64,000 nucleotides of DNA, taken from the NCBI GenBank assembly GCA_023129325.1, contig JAGMCI010000042.1:17136-81135 (forward strand). Direction: 5' to 3'. The stretch's first letter is position 1. Every line of letters begins with the position of its first letter. The stretch is from Caldifarciminota bacterium. Its GTDB lineage: Bacteria > Hydrothermota > UBA3073 > JACQXS01 > JAGMCI01. The notes beneath the pieces are model-generated. The model searched no databases. It was not told the DNA's origin and saw only the letters and a program-made list of their open reading frames with translations. The position numbers and the translations under genes are program-made. Shown piece after piece: positions 3,231 to 44,244 of the stretch.

Positions 3231-4085
3231 TTATTCTATTACTTCCATTTCAAGGATTCTATCTAATCTAAAAGTACGCCGTTCTCCCCTTAATAAGCAA
3301 TTTGCTATTAAATATGTATAATCTTGATAAGGAATTATCTCAATCGGCTCTATGGTTCGGACAGTTTCTTCTCCCTCAGCTGAGACATATCTGAGTTTAA
3401 GTTTCTTTTTACTTTTAACAGACTCCTCCACTTCAGGAGGTAATATTATTTCACCATAAGTAGGAAAAACAAATGACCCTCCTTGTAATTCCAACAGGTC
3501 GTAAAGAGTATTAACTCCTCTATCTTTAAAATTTTTAAGGAAAGCATAAAAGATTTCCTTTGTTATTTTTGTATCTCCAAGTGCTCTATGTTGATTATAA
3601 GTATCTATGCCAAAATAGGAAGCAATTTTCCCTAAACTATTTCCAGGGAAATTATAATGTGCCCGAGCTAATGTAAGAGTGTCAATAACAAAGTTATTAG
3701 GAAAAGGAATTCCTAAATTATGCAAATGTGACCCAATAAACTCTAAATCAAACGGTGCATTATGAGCTACAATTACTGAGCCCTTTATGAAATCAAAAAA
3801 GTCATTTACAATCTGGCTAAATAAAGGAGCATTCTTAACCATATTAGCAGTAATTTTATTAACATTAAAAGCTCCTGGAGAAATAGGCCTACAAGGGTTT
3901 ATTAGAGTCTCATAAGAATCTATAATCTTGCCATTCTTGGCTTTCAGGAGTCCAATCTCACATATCCTATCCCCATACTGTGGATGCAGCCCAGTAGTTT
4001 CCAAATCAAGGAAAATAAAGGTAATTTTAAGTAGAGGCGTATTGCAATACGTCCCTACCTGTGTTTTTATTTTATTAAATTGCAT
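3231..4085 (-). CDS. DEDDh 3'-5' exonuclease (DnaQ/PolC epsilon-like) with C-terminal WYL-like domain
   Basis: FIFLDLETTGLHP, VAHNAPFDLEFI, HRALGDTKIT exonuclease motifs; C-terminus KLKLRYVSAEGEETVRTIEPIEIIPYQDYTYLIANCLLRGERRTFRLDRI is WYL-like. ORF track starts at 4112; ATG at 4085 follows the RAYT stop by 2 nt. Confidence 0.85.
   Translation of the reverse strand: MQFNKIKTQVGTYCNTPLLKITFIFLDLETTGLHPQYGDRICEIGLLKAKNGKIIDSYETLINPCRPISPGAFNVNKITANMVKNAPLFSQIVNDFFDFIKGSVIVAHNAPFDLEFIGSHLHNLGIPFPNNFVIDTLTLARAHYNFPGNSLGKIASYFGIDTYNQHRALGDTKITKEIFYAFLKNFKDRGVNTLYDLLELQGGSFVFPTYGEIILPPEVEESVKSKKKLKLRYVSAEGEETVRTIEPIEIIPYQDYTYLIANCLLRGERRTFRLDRILEMEVIE
4031..4058. repeat. GTAG-GGCGTATTGCAATACGCC palindrome, in frame in exonuclease gene
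   Basis: gtagaggcgtattgcaatacgtccctac encodes VGTYCNTPL. Confidence 0.9.
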
Positions 4086-4087
4086 TG

Positions 4088-4669
4088 TTATTTTCCCTTT
4101 CCATACAACCATTCATCAAATTCATCTGTACCTATGCGGGCTGGATTTTCCCTATCAAGTTCCCATTTTAACGGATTATAATGAATATATTCTTGGATAC
4201 GATTCAATGAATGCTTGTTTCGAATAATATGTTCGTAATAATTTCGTTGCCAGAATTTTCCTAATGTATTGATATTGTTTTGCCTAATGTATCTCAACCA
4301 TTTCGTTATACAAATTGATTTATACGAGCCTATAATTTCTCCTACTGTAGGGGCAACCCTTGCGGTTGCCCCACTGAGATTTAGGGCAGGGGCAAGCCCT
4401 GCCCCTACATTGGAATCTGTATCAACAATAAAAATAATTCCATGTATATGGTTAGGCATTATTACAAACTCGTCTAACTCAATATTAGGAAACCGGTCTG
4501 GCAATTTTTGCCATTGTCCTAACACAATGGCTTTCAATTCTGGATATTGTTCAAAATACATTTCCTGATTATATGTGCAAATTGTTACAAAATACGCACC
4601 GGATTGCGAATAATCATATTCCTTTAACCGAATTGACTTCCTTTGTTTTTCAGAGTCGAGTCTTATCAT
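4088..4669 (-). mobile_element. REP-associated tyrosine transposase (RAYT, Y1_Tnp / IS200-like HUH family)
   Basis: SGAYFVTICTYNQEMYF, VIMPNHIHGIIF (HUH motif), FWQRNYYEHIIRN (candidate catalytic Tyr), single-domain 193 aa. Confidence 0.93.
4347..4406. repeat. REPIN-like inverted pair inside the RAYT ORF
   Basis: GTAGGGGCAACCcttgcGGTTGCCCC ... GGGCAGGGGCAAGCCCTGCCCCTAC encodes VGAGLAPALNLSGATARVAPT. Confidence 0.88.
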
Positions 4670-8701: not shown

Positions 8702-9361
8702 TTATTCTGTAGTTTCATTTTTTGAAATGATTGGGTCTCTAATTCCTGCGAGTTTAAAAGCTTTAAATCTCCGAATGCAGGAATCACATTTCCCACAAGC
8801 TTGAGAATTATTTTCATAACATGACCAGGTTAAATTAAGAGGGGCATTAAGTTTTAAACCAAGCTTTACAATTTCATATTTTTGCATTGAAATTACAGGA
8901 GTTATAACCTCTATATGAGTAGTTGTATTAGTTCCAGTTTCAATAATTTCATTAAATCTTTCATAAAACTCTTTTCTGCAATCTGGATATTCAGGGGCAT
9001 CTTCTTCAACTGCTCCAATAAATATTTTAGGTGCACCGATTACTTCAGCCCAAGAAACTGCAACAGCAAGAAAATTAGCATTCCTGAATGGAACATAAGT
9101 TGTTGTCCGATGCGATGCTTGCATTTTTGAGTCAATTAAACTTGAGCCTCCAATTTTTTTAAAATGTTCAAAGTCGCAAACAAGTTTATATTTTACTTTA
9201 TAAAAATCTACAAGAGAATTAAATGCTTTAAGTTCCCGTTTCTCTGTTTTTTGACCATAATTTATATGCAAAAAGGCAAGTTCATAATCTCTATTTGCTA
9301 TAGCGGCTGTCACGCAGCTATCAATACCACCTGATACAAGGATGACAGCTAAATCTTTCAT
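8702..9361 (-). CDS. queC: 7-cyano-7-deazaguanine synthase QueC
   Basis: VSGGIDSCVTAAIA, FRNANFLAVAVSWAE, C-terminal Cys cluster TWSCYENNSQACGKCDSCIRR. Confidence 0.95.
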   Translation of the reverse strand: MKDLAVILVSGGIDSCVTAAIANRDYELAFLHINYGQKTEKRELKAFNSLVDFYKVKYKLVCDFEHFKKIGGSSLIDSKMQASHRTTTYVPFRNANFLAVAVSWAEVIGAPKIFIGAVEEDAPEYPDCRKEFYERFNEIIETGTNTTTHIEVITPVISMQKYEIVKLGLKLNAPLNLTWSCYENNSQACGKCDSCIRRFKAFKLAGIRDPIISKNETTE

Positions 9362-9990
9362 CAGTGCACACTTATATATTTATGAAGCTGGACTTGTAAT
9401 TTAACTTTTAAGTTATCTTTTAGTATCCATTCAGCTAATTGTTTGGGTTTAATTTTATTCCAGACTGGTGTGAATAACAGGGGCGTATTGCAATACGCCC
9501 CTACAAGTTTATAACTTTTGATAATATTTTTTGCCCATTCGTAATCTTTTTTATCCGATAAAACAAATTTAATCTCATCTTTTGGTCTTATATTATCAAG
9601 ATTAGCCCAACATACTTTATCTGACATCCCTGAACCTGGGCATTTTATATCTATTATTCTTATTATTTGAGAATCAATCCTATTTATAGGAAGTGAGCCA
9701 TTTGTATCAATTAATATCTTATAACCCAGAGATAATAGCTTATGGCTTAAATCATAGACTTCGGGCTGTAATAAAGGTTCGCCACCTGTAATTTCTATCA
9801 ATTTACAATCATATTTATTAACCTCTTGCACAATTTCGTCTACTTTCATTTCATTTCCTTTTTCGTATGCGTATTTTGTATCGCAATAAGAACATCTAAG
9901 GTTGCATCCTGTTAATCTAATAAAGGCACAAGGTAACCCTTGAAAAGTTGATTCACCTTGAATTGATTTAAATATTTCATTCACTTTCAT
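9361..9990 (-). CDS. queE: 7-carboxy-7-deazaguanine synthase QueE (radical SAM)
   Basis: SIQGEST..G.PCAFIRLTGCNLRCSYCDTKYAY, ITGGEPLLQ. Confidence 0.95.
   Translation of the reverse strand: MKVNEIFKSIQGESTFQGLPCAFIRLTGCNLRCSYCDTKYAYEKGNEMKVDEIVQEVNKYDCKLIEITGGEPLLQPEVYDLSHKLLSLGYKILIDTNGSLPINRIDSQIIRIIDIKCPGSGMSDKVCWANLDNIRPKDEIKFVLSDKKDYEWAKNIIKSYKLVGAYCNTPLLFTPVWNKIKPKQLAEWILKDNLKVKLQVQLHKYISVH
9479..9504. repeat. GTAG-GGCGTATTGCAATACGCC palindrome in queE
   Basis: aggggcgtattgcaatacgcccctac encodes VGAYCNTPL. Confidence 0.92.
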
Positions 9991-12998: not shown

Positions 12999-13810
12999 TT
13001 TGCGAAATAGAATTTGGAGAATGGAAGAGGAAATTTTCTGCCTTTCCTCAAGAGTTATGCCTTAAATTAGGAGATTTAGTCATTTTCAAACTCGGGGAAG
13101 GACCTGCCTCGTCGAGTCAAGGCGGGGAAGAAATTGCCAAGGTAATCAAGCTTTTAAAATCAGGTAAAGTAAGTATGGTAATAAGCCGAAAAGCCAGTCC
13201 AGAAGACATTACAAATTACAAAAAGGTCAAAGAAGATGAACTAAAACTTTACAATCTTTGCAAAGATAAAGTAAAAGAGCTTGACATTCCAATAAAAGTA
13301 ACCAATGTTCATATACAATTTGACAGAAATTTGACAAGAGTTAATTTTATTGCAGAAAAGAGACCTGACCTCAAATCTCTAATAAACGAGCTTGTTAAAG
13401 TATATCATGGGAGGATGGAACTTCATCAAATTGGTGTTAGGGATGATGCCAGAAATTTTAACTCTTACGGAGTTTGCGGAAGGCCTTTATGCTGTAAAAC
13501 TTTTCTTACTGAATTTGAACCAGTAACTATCAATTTTATAAAAGCTCAGAAGCTTGCCTGCGGAGCCTCTAAACTCACTGGAGTTTGTGGAAGATTAATG
13601 TGTTGTCTTGCTTACGAGATGGACTTTTACAAAGAAGCCGAGAAAAGGTTTCCGAAGCTTGGAGACCAAGTAAAAACTGAAAAAGGGGAAGCAGTAGTAA
13701 CTGGGGTAGAGTTTTTAAAAGATTTAGTAACTGTTCAGTATCCAGATGCCAAGAAAGAAAAGATTGAACTTAATAAAATCATTTCAAAACCATCAGAGGA
13801 GACAAAATGA
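12995..13810 (+). CDS. PSP1 domain protein (YaaT/RicT-like)
   Basis: GRMELHQIGVRDDARNFNSYGVCGRPLCCKTFL...TGVCGRLMCCLAYE. Confidence 0.92.
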   Translation: MICEIEFGEWKRKFSAFPQELCLKLGDLVIFKLGEGPASSSQGGEEIAKVIKLLKSGKVSMVISRKASPEDITNYKKVKEDELKLYNLCKDKVKELDIPIKVTNVHIQFDRNLTRVNFIAEKRPDLKSLINELVKVYHGRMELHQIGVRDDARNFNSYGVCGRPLCCKTFLTEFEPVTINFIKAQKLACGASKLTGVCGRLMCCLAYEMDFYKEAEKRFPKLGDQVKTEKGEAVVTGVEFLKDLVTVQYPDAKKEKIELNKIISKPSEETK

Positions 13811-15717
13811 AGAAGGTTTTCTACATAACAACGCCTCTATATTATGTAAATGACATTCCACATATTGGTCATGCTTATACAACGGTACTATCAGATGTAA
13901 TTGCAAGGTATCACAGGGCTTTTGGGGAAGAGGTATTTTTCCTAACGGGGACAGATGAGCACGGGGAGAAAATAGCATCCTCTGCACGGGAAAGCGGAAG
14001 TTCACCCATAAAGCACTGTAATAAATATGTTTTAAAATTCAAAGCTTTGTGGAAGAAGCTTAATATAGAATACGATGACTTTATCAGGACCACAGAGGAG
14101 AGGCACGAGTTAGTCGTCAAAGAGATATTGAAGAAGCTATATGAGAAAGGTGATATTTACAAGTCGACTTACACAGGATGGTATTGCACGCCATGTGAAA
14201 GGTTCTGGACAAATAAAGACCTTATAGAAGGAAGGTGTCCGTCCTGTAACAAGACAGTATATAAGATTAAAGAATCAAACTATTTCTTTAAGATGAGCAG
14301 GTATCAGGAGAGACTCTTAAAACATATTAAGGAGAATCCAGGATTTATCAAACCAGAGTTCCGGAAGAATGAAATAACGGAGTTCCTAAAAAAGCCTCTC
14401 AATGACCTCTGTATTTCACGCCCAAAATCCAGACTCTCCTGGGGAATTCCACTTCCCTTTGACGAGGACTACACCTGTTATGTATGGATGGATGCTCTTA
14501 CGAATTACATAAGTGCTCCGGGATATATTTATAACAATAAGAAGTTTAATGAGATTTGGCCAGCAGATTACCATTTTATTGGGAAGGATATTCTTACGAC
14601 TCATTGTGTATATTGGCCTTCTTGGCTCATGGCGATTGGCATAGAACTTCCAAGAACAATATTTGCACACGGCTGGTGGATGTCTGGTGAAGGCAAGATG
14701 AGCAAATCAAAGGGAAATGTAATTGACCCTATCATATATATAGAGAAATTTGGTGAAGATGCATTTAGGTATTTTCTTATGAGAGAGATGTCTTTAGGGC
14801 AGGATGCCACCTTTAGTCATAACATATTTGTAAATCGGATAAATAGTGAGCTTGTTAATGACTATGGGAATTTAGTATCAAGGACAGTCAAGATGATTAA
14901 AGATTTTTCGGGAGGAAAGATTCCTTGTGAGCATACAAACCAGAAGACCAATCAACTGAGAAAAGAAGTAATTAAGGTTCCAAGAATTGTCAAGGAATTG
15001 GTAAAGGAAATGAGGTTAAATGAGGCAATAGAAGAGGTAATGAGTCTTGTAAGGAGGACAAACAGGTTCATTGAGGAAACTGCCCCGTGGAAATTAAACA
15101 AGGAGAATAAAAAGAAAGAATTAGAGGGTGTTTTATATGCTGTAAGTGAGGCTTTGAGATTTGTCTCTATACTCCTTCATCCTATAATACCAAATAAATC
15201 TACCATTGCCCTTAAAAATTTTAATATAGACATTAAAAAGAGGGGTTCTTTCAACTCTCTTGATTGGGGAGGTTTAACTTCCGGGACAGAAATAAACCCA
15301 CAAGAGATGCTATTCCCAAGAATAAAAACTCATCTGGACGGGCGTATTGACTTCGGCGAGCTCAGTCGAGCCGCAATACGCCCCTATTCTGTGGTTAAAG
15401 TATCTTTTGACGATTTTAAGAAATTAGATATAAAAATAGCTGAAATCAAAGAAGTAATAAATATTAAAGGTGCTAACAAGCTTTTAAAACTTAAAATTGT
15501 AATAGGTAAAGAAGAGAGGCAAATTGTAGCTGGCATAGGAGCTTATTATTCACCTCGGGAACTCATAGGTAAAAAGATAGTAGTTTTAACAAATCTTGAA
15601 CCTCGTATTGTAAAGGGAGAACTTTCAGAGGGAATGCTTCTTGCGGCTACTGAAGGAGACAAAATAGTTCTTCTCACCCCTGATAAAGATATTTCTTCTG
15701 GTTCTATTATAAGTTAA
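13807..15717 (+). CDS. metG: Methionyl-tRNA synthetase with C-terminal tRNA-binding domain
   Basis: TTPLYYVNDIPHIGHAYTT, KMSKSKGNVIDP, C-terminal VSFDDFKKLDIKIAEI. Confidence 0.97.
   Translation: MKKVFYITTPLYYVNDIPHIGHAYTTVLSDVIARYHRAFGEEVFFLTGTDEHGEKIASSARESGSSPIKHCNKYVLKFKALWKKLNIEYDDFIRTTEERHELVVKEILKKLYEKGDIYKSTYTGWYCTPCERFWTNKDLIEGRCPSCNKTVYKIKESNYFFKMSRYQERLLKHIKENPGFIKPEFRKNEITEFLKKPLNDLCISRPKSRLSWGIPLPFDEDYTCYVWMDALTNYISAPGYIYNNKKFNEIWPADYHFIGKDILTTHCVYWPSWLMAIGIELPRTIFAHGWWMSGEGKMSKSKGNVIDPIIYIEKFGEDAFRYFLMREMSLGQDATFSHNIFVNRINSELVNDYGNLVSRTVKMIKDFSGGKIPCEHTNQKTNQLRKEVIKVPRIVKELVKEMRLNEAIEEVMSLVRRTNRFIEETAPWKLNKENKKKELEGVLYAVSEALRFVSILLHPIIPNKSTIALKNFNIDIKKRGSFNSLDWGGLTSGTEINPQEMLFPRIKTHLDGRIDFGELSRAAIRPYSVVKVSFDDFKKLDIKIAEIKEVINIKGANKLLKLKIVIGKEERQIVAGIGAYYSPRELIGKKIVVLTNLEPRIVKGELSEGMLLAATEGDKIVLLTPDKDISSGSIIS
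15337..15386 (+). repeat. Nested palindromes in metG linker
   Basis: GGGCGTATTGacttcggcgagctcagtcgagccgCAATACGCCC. Confidence 0.85.
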
Positions 15718-17020: not shown

Positions 17021-19639
17021 ATGTTTTGTACCAGAAGCACATCCGCCTTTGGCGGAAAGTATTTAGTAGCAGTTTTGGGGACGTTTATTTGCGTCCAGAG
17101 TTTTGGAGCTGGGTATGGGCTCAGGCTCCAGGAGAGAAGAGTTGCAAAGGTTAAGTCTCAGGAGAAGGCAGAGATACCTCGTGAGGTGAATTTTCAGGGT
17201 TTCTTGACAGATGCGGCTGAAGATACTGCAATTAGTGGAGAATATGATATGGAATTTAAGATATGGAATACGGAAACAGGTGGTAATTTGTTATGGGGTG
17301 AGACACAGGAAAATGTCTCTGTGGATGGTGGCATATTCAATGTCATTCTTGGCGAGGTCAATGCGATTCCTGACTCAGTATTTCGGGATTTTACCAATCT
17401 TTATTTAGAACTTATAGTAGGAGGTGAGCTCCTCAGTCCGCGGCAAAAGCTCGTGAGTGTGGGTAGGAGCTACAAAGCCACTTATGCGGACACTGCTGGT
17501 TATTCACTTGCTGCCGATGTGCAGTATGTGGATTCAGCAGGAGTATCAGTTAATGCATGGAAATGGAATAACAATGCGTGGGGGGCTGAATATCCATATG
17601 CTACTGTCTCGGGTATTGCCTATTACATATTAGGTGCGAATGTAGATGGAGAAGTAGCACAAGCAAACAAAGCTGATACAGCCACTTATGCAATTTCAGG
17701 TGGTAGTGCTGATAATGATTGGACTATAAGTGGCAATGTTCTTTATCCTGCTGGGAATTATGGGCTGGCAATGCGTCAATCTAATGTACTTTATGGCAGT
17801 AATGCCAATACCCATGTAGACTTTGGTTCTTCCTGTACAACAGGCGCTTCTGGTCAAAATCTCAGTTATTGCACTGTAAGTGGTGGATGGCGCAACACAG
17901 CCAGCGGTCTCAGTGCCACAGTGGGTGGCGGAATCAACAACACTGCCAGTGGTGCTTATGCAACAATAAGTGGTGGAGATTACAACAAAGTCACTATCCA
18001 GGAGGCAACAGTGGGTGGTGGCTATAGCAACACAGCCAGCGGCTATGCTGGGGTTGTGAGTGGTGGACACACCAACACCGCCGACAGCGCCTATGCGACT
18101 GTGGGCGGCGGACAGAGCAACACTACCAGCAACAATTATGCGACTGTGGGCGGCGGAGGTAATAACACTGCCAGTCATCCGTATGCGACAGTGAGCGGTG
18201 GATATATCAACACTGCCAGCGGTTTTGCTGCCACTGTGGGTGGTGGATATGTTAACACAGTCAGTGGCAGCCGTGCAACTATATCGGGCGGAGATTACAA
18301 CACCGCCAGCGGCAACGAGGCGACTGTGGGTGGTGGATATCAAAACACTGCCAGTAGCAACTATACGACTGTGGGAGGTGGCTATGCAGATACTGCAAGC
18401 GGCGACTATGCGACTGTGAGTGGCGGAGAGAACAACACTGCCAGCAACAACTGGGCGACTGTGGGTGGTGGATATACCAACACTGCCAGCGGCGACCGTG
18501 CGACCGTGGGTGGTGGATATGACAACACTGCCAGCGGGCAGTTTGCGACCGCATCAGGCGGATGGAACAACACTGCCAGCAACTACTATGCGACAGTGGG
18601 TGGTGGACAGAGCAACAATGCCAGTAGCAACCACACGACAGTGGGTGGTGGGAAAAACAACACTGCCAGTAGCTGGTATGCAACTGTGGCTGGTGGCTAT
18701 AACAATGAAGCCGGCGCCACCAATGCAACTGTGGCTGGTGGAGAGAGCAACATCGCCAGCCATAATCATGCGACAGTGGGTGGTGGGAAAAACAACACTG
18801 CCAGCCACTTGTATGCAACTGTGGCTGGTGGAGATTCCAACACTGCCAGCGAAACTCATGCGACTGTGAGTGGTGGATGGAACAACACTGCCAATAGAGG
18901 GCATGCGACTGTGGGTGGTGGATATGAAAACACCGCCAGTAACAACTATGCGACAGTGAGTGGCGGATATAGCAACATCGCCAGTGGAACTCATGCGACT
19001 GTGGGTGGCGGAGCTTACAACACTGCCAGCAACTGGTATGCGACTGTGAGTGGCGGAACTTACAACACTGCCAGCGGTGAGTGTGCGACTGTGGGTGGTG
19101 GAAGGGCTGATACAGTTGCTGGGGACTATTCATTTGCTGCAGGAAAGGATGTAAGGGTGACCGATGCGGCTGATTACACTTTTGCATTTGGGCGTGATTT
19201 TACAACTTCTACTCCTAATGCAGTCATATTCCATAACTCAGTGCATGAGATTAAAGTTGGTATTGGGATGGCGAGTCCTGGCAACATTCTGACTGTGAAG
19301 CAAACTTCTACGACTGACCCGATTGCTGATGGGTGGACAGTTTATTCATCAAGGCGCTGGAAGACAAATATAGAGCCGATTCCGGGAGCGTTGGAGAAAG
19401 TGAAGCAACTCCGGGGTGTATATTTTGATTGGAAGGAGAATGGGAAGCATGATATGGGTATGATAGCAGAAGAGGTGGGCGAAGTTATTCCTGAGGTTGT
19501 TGCTTATGAGGAGAATGGAGAAGATGCCAAGTCCATTGATTATGCGAGGTTAGTATCAGTATTAGTAGAAGCAGTAAAGGAGCAGCAGGTTGAGATTGAG
19601 ACTCTGAAATCAGAGATTGAAGTTCTGAAAGCCAGGTAA
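17021..19639 (+). CDS. YadA-head-repeat fibre protein with C-terminal Peptidase_S74-like (intramolecular chaperone) domain
   Basis: About 25 repeats of (A)TVGGGYxNTASGxYA; C-terminus SSRRWKTNIEPIPGALEKVKQLRGVYFDWKENGKHDMGMIAEEVGEVIPEVV...KSIDYARLVSVLVEAVKEQ. Confidence 0.92.
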   Translation: MFCTRSTSAFGGKYLVAVLGTFICVQSFGAGYGLRLQERRVAKVKSQEKAEIPREVNFQGFLTDAAEDTAISGEYDMEFKIWNTETGGNLLWGETQENVSVDGGIFNVILGEVNAIPDSVFRDFTNLYLELIVGGELLSPRQKLVSVGRSYKATYADTAGYSLAADVQYVDSAGVSVNAWKWNNNAWGAEYPYATVSGIAYYILGANVDGEVAQANKADTATYAISGGSADNDWTISGNVLYPAGNYGLAMRQSNVLYGSNANTHVDFGSSCTTGASGQNLSYCTVSGGWRNTASGLSATVGGGINNTASGAYATISGGDYNKVTIQEATVGGGYSNTASGYAGVVSGGHTNTADSAYATVGGGQSNTTSNNYATVGGGGNNTASHPYATVSGGYINTASGFAATVGGGYVNTVSGSRATISGGDYNTASGNEATVGGGYQNTASSNYTTVGGGYADTASGDYATVSGGENNTASNNWATVGGGYTNTASGDRATVGGGYDNTASGQFATASGGWNNTASNYYATVGGGQSNNASSNHTTVGGGKNNTASSWYATVAGGYNNEAGATNATVAGGESNIASHNHATVGGGKNNTASHLYATVAGGDSNTASETHATVSGGWNNTANRGHATVGGGYENTASNNYATVSGGYSNIASGTHATVGGGAYNTASNWYATVSGGTYNTASGECATVGGGRADTVAGDYSFAAGKDVRVTDAADYTFAFGRDFTTSTPNAVIFHNSVHEIKVGIGMASPGNILTVKQTSTTDPIADGWTVYSSRRWKTNIEPIPGALEKVKQLRGVYFDWKENGKHDMGMIAEEVGEVIPEVVAYEENGEDAKSIDYARLVSVLVEAVKEQQVEIETLKSEIEVLKAR
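17871..19110 (+). repeat. About 25 tandem copies of a 48-bp coding repeat (16 aa, YadA head-like)
   Basis: Recurrent gcgACTGTGgGTGGTGGAtatnnCAACACTGCCAGCnnn unit. Confidence 0.92.
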
Positions 19640-41788: not shown

Positions 41789-43039
41789 ATGCAAAATGAT
41801 AAGTCGTTGAAGGCAACTATTGTTATACCAACTTATTGGACTGCGGAAGAATTTATTCCTTCCGCAAATAACCCAATATACGACCATCCGACTCCATTAA
41901 ACAGCGAAGGCACTCTTGGACGGTTATTAGATTCTATGAAAATATTAAAAGAAAAAGACTTTGATGTAATGATAATAAGTGTCCCGACATCACAAGAGAT
42001 AGGCAAAGTAGGGGCGTATAGCAATACGCCCGCACTAATAAAAAAGAAAGTAGATGCTATAATAGAACCTTTTAAGAAACTTTACAATATTCATCATTTC
42101 TCTTATCCAGATTTACTTCCTATACATAAGAAATTAAAGGAGCTTGGCAAGAAAGAGTATATTCCTTATTTCAGCCTTGATGGATATTCAAATATCAGGA
42201 ATATGTGTTTAATTTTGCCTCATATTCTTGGCACCGATATTGTAATCCTCATAGATGACGATGAGGTTTTTGAAGACCCTGACTTTATTAAGAAAGCTCA
42301 TGCTTTTATAGGCAAAAATGAGATTTATGGAATTGCCGGATGTTATATTCAGCCATATGGAGGCTATAAATTTAAAGGTAAGCGAGAATGGTGGAAATTT
42401 TTATGGAATAATACAGGGGCAATGAACAAAGTGTTTGAACTAATTGAAACTCCTGCACAAATTGAATTTGTGCCTACATATAAACTCGGCAGACTAAAAG
42501 AAACTCCTTTTGCTGGCGGTGGCAATATGGTAATTCACAAGAACCTATTTACTAAAGTTAGCTTTGACCCGTGGATTAATCGCGGAGAAGATGTTGATTT
42601 TCTTTGTAACAGTAAAATTGCTGGATTCAAGTTTTTGCTTGACACTAAACTATCAATCTTACATCTTCCACCGGCTAACAAAAATCCATTATGGCTCCAG
42701 TTAAGAGAGGATATCAGGAGATTCATTTATATGAGGATAAAATTATTGAAACAAGGTTATTCAATAAAAAGGACAATGCCATATCCGGGGTATTTTCTTA
42801 AATTTGATTTATACTTCAAGATTTTCATAACTAACCGTATTTTAGCTGGAGCTTATTTTTTAAAAGGGCAATTCAAAGAATCTGTTGAGTTTTTGAAAAA
42901 TATATTACTTGTTTTTAAATTCAGGAAAGAGGCTTACATAAACTATCAGAAATTTATAAATTTCAGCAAAGGGTGGCCCCAATTTATGAATTGGCTTGAA
43001 AAAAATAGAGATTTAATTTTATCAAAGATACCGGAATGA
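41789..43039 (+). CDS. Glycosyltransferase family 2-like protein
   Basis: ATIVIPTYW, VILIDDDEVFEDPDFI, GGGNMVIHKNLF. Confidence 0.8.
   Translation: MQNDKSLKATIVIPTYWTAEEFIPSANNPIYDHPTPLNSEGTLGRLLDSMKILKEKDFDVMIISVPTSQEIGKVGAYSNTPALIKKKVDAIIEPFKKLYNIHHFSYPDLLPIHKKLKELGKKEYIPYFSLDGYSNIRNMCLILPHILGTDIVILIDDDEVFEDPDFIKKAHAFIGKNEIYGIAGCYIQPYGGYKFKGKREWWKFLWNNTGAMNKVFELIETPAQIEFVPTYKLGRLKETPFAGGGNMVIHKNLFTKVSFDPWINRGEDVDFLCNSKIAGFKFLLDTKLSILHLPPANKNPLWLQLREDIRRFIYMRIKLLKQGYSIKRTMPYPGYFLKFDLYFKIFITNRILAGAYFLKGQFKESVEFLKNILLVFKFRKEAYINYQKFINFSKGWPQFMNWLEKNRDLILSKIPE
42008..42035. repeat. GTAG-type palindrome in glycosyltransferase gene
   Basis: gtaggggcgtatagcaatacgcccgcac encodes VGAYSNTPA. Confidence 0.9.
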
Positions 43040-44244
43040 AAATTCTTTTTTTGCCCAAACAAATTCCGCATTCAAAAGTTATTGGTGGACCAATAATTAT
43101 TTATAACAGGATAAAAGAACTTTCAAAACGACACGAAGTTTCATTGCTTTCATTCTTAAGAGAAGATTCTGAAAAACAATGGCTCTCAACTGTTACAAAA
43201 TATTGTAAGGAAGCAGAATTTTTGCCTCTCCCCCATTGGTATGGGCGTATTGCTATATGCCCCTACTCATTATTTCAATTTTTCTTCTCTCCTACGCCTC
43301 CTTATTTCTTAACCACATATACTCAAGAGATGGAAAACAAAGTAGCTAAGATGACACGCAAGTATAAATATGATGTGATAATTGCAGAATACTCAGTTAT
43401 GGGACAATATCTTTATAAGAATAAAAGACTCCCAAATGTACGCAAAGTGATTTCTTGTCATGAATGTTACTTTACTGCGAGATATAATACATTTAAGCAA
43501 AATTGGTATAAAAAAGAAGGGTTAACAGCACTAACTCATTTAAAAAGACTTAAACATTATGAATTTAATATGTATCGTTCAGCTGATAAGGTTTTAACTC
43601 TCACTCCTCAAGATAAAGCCACGCTGTTAAGTTTTGCTCCTGACCTTAATATTTCTGTAGTTCCGCATGGGGTAGATGTTACATATTTTACCCCATCGGA
43701 CCATAGTTCTCTTGAGCCATCAGTTATGTTTCTTGGAAATTATCCTCACTTACCCAATCGGGATGCGGTTTTATATTTTTATAATGACATTTTGCCTCTT
43801 ATAAGGAAAGAATTCACGGAACTCAAATTTTATATTGTTGGCAGGAATCCACAGTCAGAAATAAATGACCTGGTAAAAAGGGATTCAGGTATTATAGTAA
43901 CAGGTACAGTTTCTGATGTAAGAGAATATTTTAAGAAGACAAAAATATTTATTTGTCCAATTAGATTAGGCGGCGGATTTAGAGGCAAGATTCTTGAAGC
44001 AATGGCATCAGGTGTTCCTGTTGTCTCAACTTCATTAGGAGCTTATGGTATTCCTGCTAAAGACGGAGAAAACATTTTGATTGCAGATTCCAAAATTGAT
44101 TTTGCCAACAAAGTAATTAAGTTATTACAAGATAAAGAACTTTATAAAAGGATTGCCAAAAATGGGCGGAAATTAGTTGAACAAGAATTCTCATGGGCTA
44201 AAGGAGCAGAAAAACTTGAAAAAGTATTACTAAGCATTTTTTAA
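43036..44244 (+). CDS. Glycosyltransferase family 4
   Basis: VVPHGVDVTYFTP, MFLGNYPHLPNRDAVLYFYNDILPLI, GGGFRGKILEAMASGVPVVSTSLGAYGI. Confidence 0.92.
   Translation: MKILFLPKQIPHSKVIGGPIIIYNRIKELSKRHEVSLLSFLREDSEKQWLSTVTKYCKEAEFLPLPHWYGRIAICPYSLFQFFFSPTPPYFLTTYTQEMENKVAKMTRKYKYDVIIAEYSVMGQYLYKNKRLPNVRKVISCHECYFTARYNTFKQNWYKKEGLTALTHLKRLKHYEFNMYRSADKVLTLTPQDKATLLSFAPDLNISVVPHGVDVTYFTPSDHSSLEPSVMFLGNYPHLPNRDAVLYFYNDILPLIRKEFTELKFYIVGRNPQSEINDLVKRDSGIIVTGTVSDVREYFKKTKIFICPIRLGGGFRGKILEAMASGVPVVSTSLGAYGIPAKDGENILIADSKIDFANKVIKLLQDKELYKRIAKNGRKLVEQEFSWAKGAEKLEKVLLSIF
43240..43266. repeat. GTAG-type palindrome in glycosyltransferase gene, alternative frame
   Basis: tatgggcgtattgctatatgcccctac encodes YGRIAICPY. 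Confidence 0.85.

Follow-up and report, generated by a model that had tools for sequence, protein, structure and literature searches.

How did one palindrome come to lie within another, in frame, inside an intact gene for methionyl-tRNA synthetase (MetRS)? The case lies in the window, that is, the whole 64,000-nt stretch of a Caldifarciminota bacterium contig analysed here, in which metG (13807-15717, plus strand) encodes a 636-aa MetRS with a C-terminal tRNA-binding domain. The full-length family model NF008900 matches residues 2-635 of the product at 826 bits, and PF09334 and PF01588 (residues 542-633) are matched as well. Between the catalytic/anticodon body and PF01588 lies a composite element (15336-15387, no strand assigned), in which the left arm GGGCGTATTG (15340-15349, plus strand) and the right arm CAATACGCCC (15374-15383, plus strand), complementary at 10 of 10 positions, are spaced 24 nt apart and flanked by degenerate feet, GGAC and CTAT for the GTAG and CTAC of the outer repeat family to which the arms belong. 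The 24 nt between them form an in-frame inner unit, ACTTCGGCGAGCTCAGTCGAGCCG (15350-15373, plus strand), alternatively read as 23 nt plus a 1-bp repeat of G. The initial annotation had described a palindrome whose loop holds a second, partly palindromic segment; the exact 10-bp arms around a weakly palindromic 24-nt loop bear out the nesting and the partial palindromy, but the loop is one base longer than had been given. The element-derived peptide DGRIDFGELSRAAIRPYS (15337-15390, plus strand) had been read correctly and rightly placed in the linker ahead of the tRNA-binding domain, where it makes up MetRS residues 511-528. With a length divisible by 3 (24 nt) and no stop in the frame used, the inner unit leaves the gene open.

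The inner loop alone folds weakly (-5.9 kcal/mol, 6-bp stem), compared with -20.5 kcal/mol for the consensus outer palindrome and -23.6 kcal/mol for the 52-nt composite. As the metG segment folds better than its shuffles (z -2.67; 2 of 200 fold equally well) and sits at a domain boundary, it might be a functional structure of the metG mRNA, selected for attenuation, domain-boundary pausing or transcript stability. We regard this as very improbable: the linker, which varies in length and sequence among the 29 relatives aligned, contains the inner or outer element in none of them, and the outer sequence recurs in about 20 unrelated genes at unrelated positions. RNA regulation specific to metG was left as an unsupported idea.

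The outer arms belong to a dispersed family with a 28-bp palindromic consensus, GTAGGGGCGTATTGCAATACGCCCCTAC, also written GTAGGGGCGTATTG...CAATACGCCCCTAC. The 2.0-Mb genome (57 contigs) holds 23 uninterrupted copies with at most 2 mismatches to the 20-bp core, against 0 in the reversed-pattern control. Within the window, the outer-arm motif (at most 1 mismatch) occurs 10 times where 1.4 are expected, and exact, G+C-rich (at least 5/10) 10-bp arm pairs with loops of up to 40 number 25, overlapping registers being counted separately, where order-1 simulations give 0.7 on average. Chance similarity could draw on the weak palindromy of the inner segment taken alone, but the copy numbers are high and the control matches zero (outer, 23 versus 0; inner, 6 versus 0), which, with the arm pairs, rules out a chance palindrome and leaves that reading a negligible probability.

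Within the phylum the exact 28-mer is sparse (8 of 147 genomes), yet the arm pattern is matched between 12 and 73 times in each of five distant genomes that a contig scan reached, which bear the labels Tectomicrobia, Brocadiaceae, Deltaproteobacteria, Atribacteria and Omnitrophota. Scanning contigs for the outer arms around any centre of 1-31 nt returned at least 118 stretches, some of which are plain hairpins or tandem outer copies rather than nests. Many of the centres among the matches listed are further palindromes, each recurrent in a single group, and at the TTG|CAA centre they include one 30-nt unit in Planctomycetota/Brocadiaceae and another 30-nt unit in Atribacteria.

Outer copies are mostly found inside protein genes. 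Copies in the window besides that in metG have no strand assigned. The one at 4031-4058 (GTAGAGGCGTATTGCAATACGTCCCTAC) occupies codons at the 5' end of a gene for an exonuclease (RNase_T). Others are in frame: 9477-9504 falls in a gene for a radical-SAM protein (9361-9990, minus strand), 42008-42035 in an ORF that matches no Pfam family (41789-43039, plus strand) and 43239-43266 in a gene for a glycosyltransferase (43036-44244, plus strand). Of 25 copies examined genome-wide, a set that contains both nested ones, 20 lie well within ORFs 200 aa or longer. Recognised families account for most of the 20: UvrA, PheT, IspG, a GlmU-like nucleotidyltransferase, lipoyl synthase, ThiE, FtsA, a Mur ligase, an ETF-alpha-type protein, Lnt, an epimerase and glycosyltransferases. 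Sixteen of these copies are read as VGAYCNTPL, 2 as RGVLQYAP and 2 in the frame that the TAG of the foot would close; in both of the latter (metG and 43239-43266) that TAG is lost, having become TAT in the glycosyltransferase gene. Human PheRS-beta is without 6 of the residues at the PheT site. Given a coding density of about 0.92 in the window, outer copies reside in genes roughly as often as the share of genes predicts, after selection, and those that survive there probably do so in frame, in tolerant loops or linkers.

As to how the outer palindrome moves, its GTAG foot and the five Y1_Tnp genes of the genome point to mobilisation as a single-stranded DNA hairpin, possibly by a RAYT (REP-associated tyrosine transposase; Y1/HUH). 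The window contains one RAYT-like gene (4088-4669, minus strand), which has a Y1_Tnp hit and matches NF047646 in two stretches (E 2.2e-20; 73 bits, below the 80-bit cut-off). Two palindromes tagged with GTAG at one end lie in frame in its own coding sequence (approximately 4347-4372 and 4385-4408). Two others of the five Y1_Tnp genes each have a distinct GTAG-type palindrome of their own on both sides; the bracketing palindromes were located at 1385-1437 and 2031-2049 in locus L207 and at 1407-1424 and 1912-1929 in locus L209. The outer palindrome flanks none of the genome's RAYT-like genes on both sides, and the copy at 4031-4058 lies 29 bp past the stop of the RAYT-like gene in the window.

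The inner 24-mer constitutes a family of its own, with 6 copies in the host genome, 1 in a relative of the same family (G001), 29 in a Tectomicrobia genome (G147) and 0 in controls. Its ends are identical in at least three different palindromes. In metG and lnt it sits at TTG|CAA of the outer palindrome. At AAAATYGG|TGATTTT of a second palindrome it is present in two loci (L020, L234) and absent twice in a third (L210), where the empty palindrome brackets a Y1 transposase gene. A third palindrome, CCACTCCGTGG|TGAAGG, is filled in L019 and L229 and represented by an empty-type sequence in L021, a locus in which one inner unit also lies inside another. The target gains 24 nt net and loses none of its own. 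The base before the unit is G in 44 of 45 distinct contexts, and the last base of the unit is G as well, so that 23 nt plus a 1-bp repeat would describe the insert just as well.

Flanking dyad arms of at least 8 (at most 1 mismatch) surround 3 of the 6 inner copies in the host, compared with 0.7% of random positions, and 14 of the 23 copies examined in the Tectomicrobia genome, compared with 1.4%. By the same arm measure the flanks in L019 and L021 are weak dyads (scores 3 and 6), and around some copies, e.g., L251, L275 and L285, there is no palindrome. This preference for dyad centres suggests that the target is the tip of a hairpin or cruciform. A different way to arrive at such a distribution would be for template switching or gene conversion between palindromes at replication to swap hairpin tips, with the inner unit not transposing at all. 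Such swapping would agree with three observations: most inner copies lie at tips; the stems around them differ greatly in the Tectomicrobia genome; and L239, L245 and L261 hold partial tandem repeats of the end of the unit (TCGAGCCG). Nevertheless, we consider it unlikely, as the ends are exact across dissimilar stems that have little in common beyond a G, and some inner copies (L275, L285) lie outside palindromes.

Since the two repeats, inner and outer, form separate families, and each occurs in this genome in copies free of the other, the nest required at least two rounds of activity, which upholds the earlier proposal of successive insertions; the single-element intermediates are present at other loci of the genome, not at metG. 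Both rounds need not have taken place inside metG. The composite recurs with the same junctions in lnt of the same genome and in two places in the Tectomicrobia genome (loci L240, L243 and L244), so a ready-made composite could have landed in metG. A search of 146 further genomes of the phylum found the composite in none, and the viral contigs gave no match to the composite pattern tested. The recurrence also raises a rival possibility, to which we give serious weight while holding it clearly short of an even chance: the 52-bp composite might be a single REP variant with a long loop, mobile as a whole, that reached metG in a single step, and GTAG-REPs with loops of up to 20 bp have indeed been described (PMC3733652, Table 1). 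However, the inner unit occurs with the same ends in other stems (AAAATYGG|TGATTTT, CCACTCC... and many GTAGGGGCG stems in the Tectomicrobia genome) and inside itself, and 23 outer copies are without it; a composite moving as one would account for the last step only, not for the origin of the nest. The stems around the inner unit in the Tectomicrobia genome and some relatives differ (GGGCGTATTG, GGGCGACCGG, GCGAGGCATG and others), which likewise speaks against one clonal composite.

Two further settings of the inner unit were noted in passing. In genome G208, two similar loci (L281 and L283; 90% over 260 bp) carry it between CAGTG(C/G)ACGG and TGCACAGTG. In a genome searched as a Tectomicrobia relative (L259), it lies in frame in a GGGCGACCGG palindrome within a 981-codon open frame, the product of which resembles a sulfatase by eye.

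We therefore return to two stacked families of tiny repeats as the probable explanation: a GTAG-REP-like outer palindrome that spread into genes and an inner unit that preferentially enters the dyad centres of palindromes. The outer 28-bp palindrome would spread through the genome, genes included, mobilised as a single-stranded hairpin; the inner unit would enter the dyad centre, i.e., the hairpin tip, of an existing palindrome after a G, with the target otherwise unchanged; and the pair would thereby have become an 18-residue stretch of the flexible linker ahead of the tRNA-binding domain of MetRS. Insertion at metG is inferred from the repeats rather than from a before/after pair. The order of events at this gene and mobility through a single-stranded hairpin or cruciform are presumed, as is the neutrality of the added residues for MetRS. 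More tentatively, and with a little less than even confidence, we propose that mobile 'tip' elements of approximately 24-30 nt exist across several phyla and insert precisely at the dyad centres of unrelated palindromes, so that one insertion after another at the centre would lengthen the hairpins, in essential genes too and in frame there.

Several known systems share parts of this behaviour. GTAG-REPs, which are associated with RAYTs (TnpAREP, PMC8266576), are 20-40 bp palindromes with a GTAG foot, occur in several phyla including Planctomycetes and Cyanobacteria, have intragenic copies in uvrA and tRNA synthetases, and include GTAG/CGTC elements sitting within other palindromes (Di Nocera et al. 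2013, PMC3733652). The outer family resembles them in size and copy number (28-bp consensus, 23 dispersed copies), in its occurrence in many phyla and in the presence of Y1 transposase genes in this genome. Unlike the known tag, which is one-ended and unpaired, its GTAG is mirrored by CTAC in a fully palindromic consensus and hence base-paired, and whereas the known GTAG-REPs are mostly extragenic, 20 of 25 outer copies lie inside ORFs. In-frame palindromic repeats in many unrelated, apparently functional genes are also known as Rickettsia palindromic elements (RPEs), a likeness taken from their description in PMC3733652. RPEs belong to another lineage, and the outer palindrome differs from them, as so described, in its 28 bp, compared with the longer RPE-1, and in its central nested insertion.

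For the inner unit, the closest match appears to be the small dispersed repeats (SDRs) of cyanobacteria, which Elhai and colleagues are reported to have described in 2008 (work cited in PMC3116915) as hairpin-forming units of 21-27 nt, some nested in their own copies; one of them, SDR5, is said to occur only inside the palindromic octamer HIP1. The inner unit is similar in its 24 nt and 6-bp stem, and in being nested both in itself and in outer palindromes, but it occurs in coding sequence and in genomes that are not cyanobacterial. Existing palindromes are likewise hot spots for the insertion sequences known to target REPs (Tobes and Pareja 2006, PMC1525189); there the insert is a complete insertion sequence, in metG it measures 24 nt. 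The outer repeat is thus probably a GTAG-REP-like palindrome that enters genes as RPEs do and is re-entered at its tip, by an inferred mechanism, by an SDR-like unit. In the literature searched, we found neither the exact DNA and peptide strings of the element nor a published description of the outer and inner families, of a cross-phylum dyad-centre target or of in-frame nesting. The phenomenon thus appears to be of a known kind, with GTAG-REPs, RPEs and SDRs as precedents, and the two families, the sharper target and the in-frame nested case appear to be new. It offers a countable case of a very small repeat that apparently targets a structure, the centre of a palindrome, rather than a sequence, in a genome where REP-like palindromes lie in genes at about the rate predicted by coding density. 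Comparative genomics could address by what route repeats of this size spread and in what way proteins take them up as new linker peptides.

The history of the MetRS gene itself is a separate matter. The protein is closest (46-47% identity) to the MetRS of one distant family of the phylum, and the nearest relative, G001 of the same family, has another MetRS type (37% identity over part of the protein); this combination suggests a past replacement or transfer of the gene. We also considered, and dropped, a recent gene-fusion junction at the element. The idea came from five relatives (f22) whose MetRS ends at the same point (LFPR[VI]E), several of them with a separate tRNA-binding ORF in the genome. 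The fused architecture fits full-length NF008900 and the solved full-length MetRS 9shc, so the element simply occupies a naturally variable linker. Downstream of metG, the window encodes an 872-aa protein (17021-19639, plus strand) with many repeats of the TVGGGYxNTASGxxATVSGG type and a C-terminal segment that, by eye, resembles an intramolecular chaperone domain.
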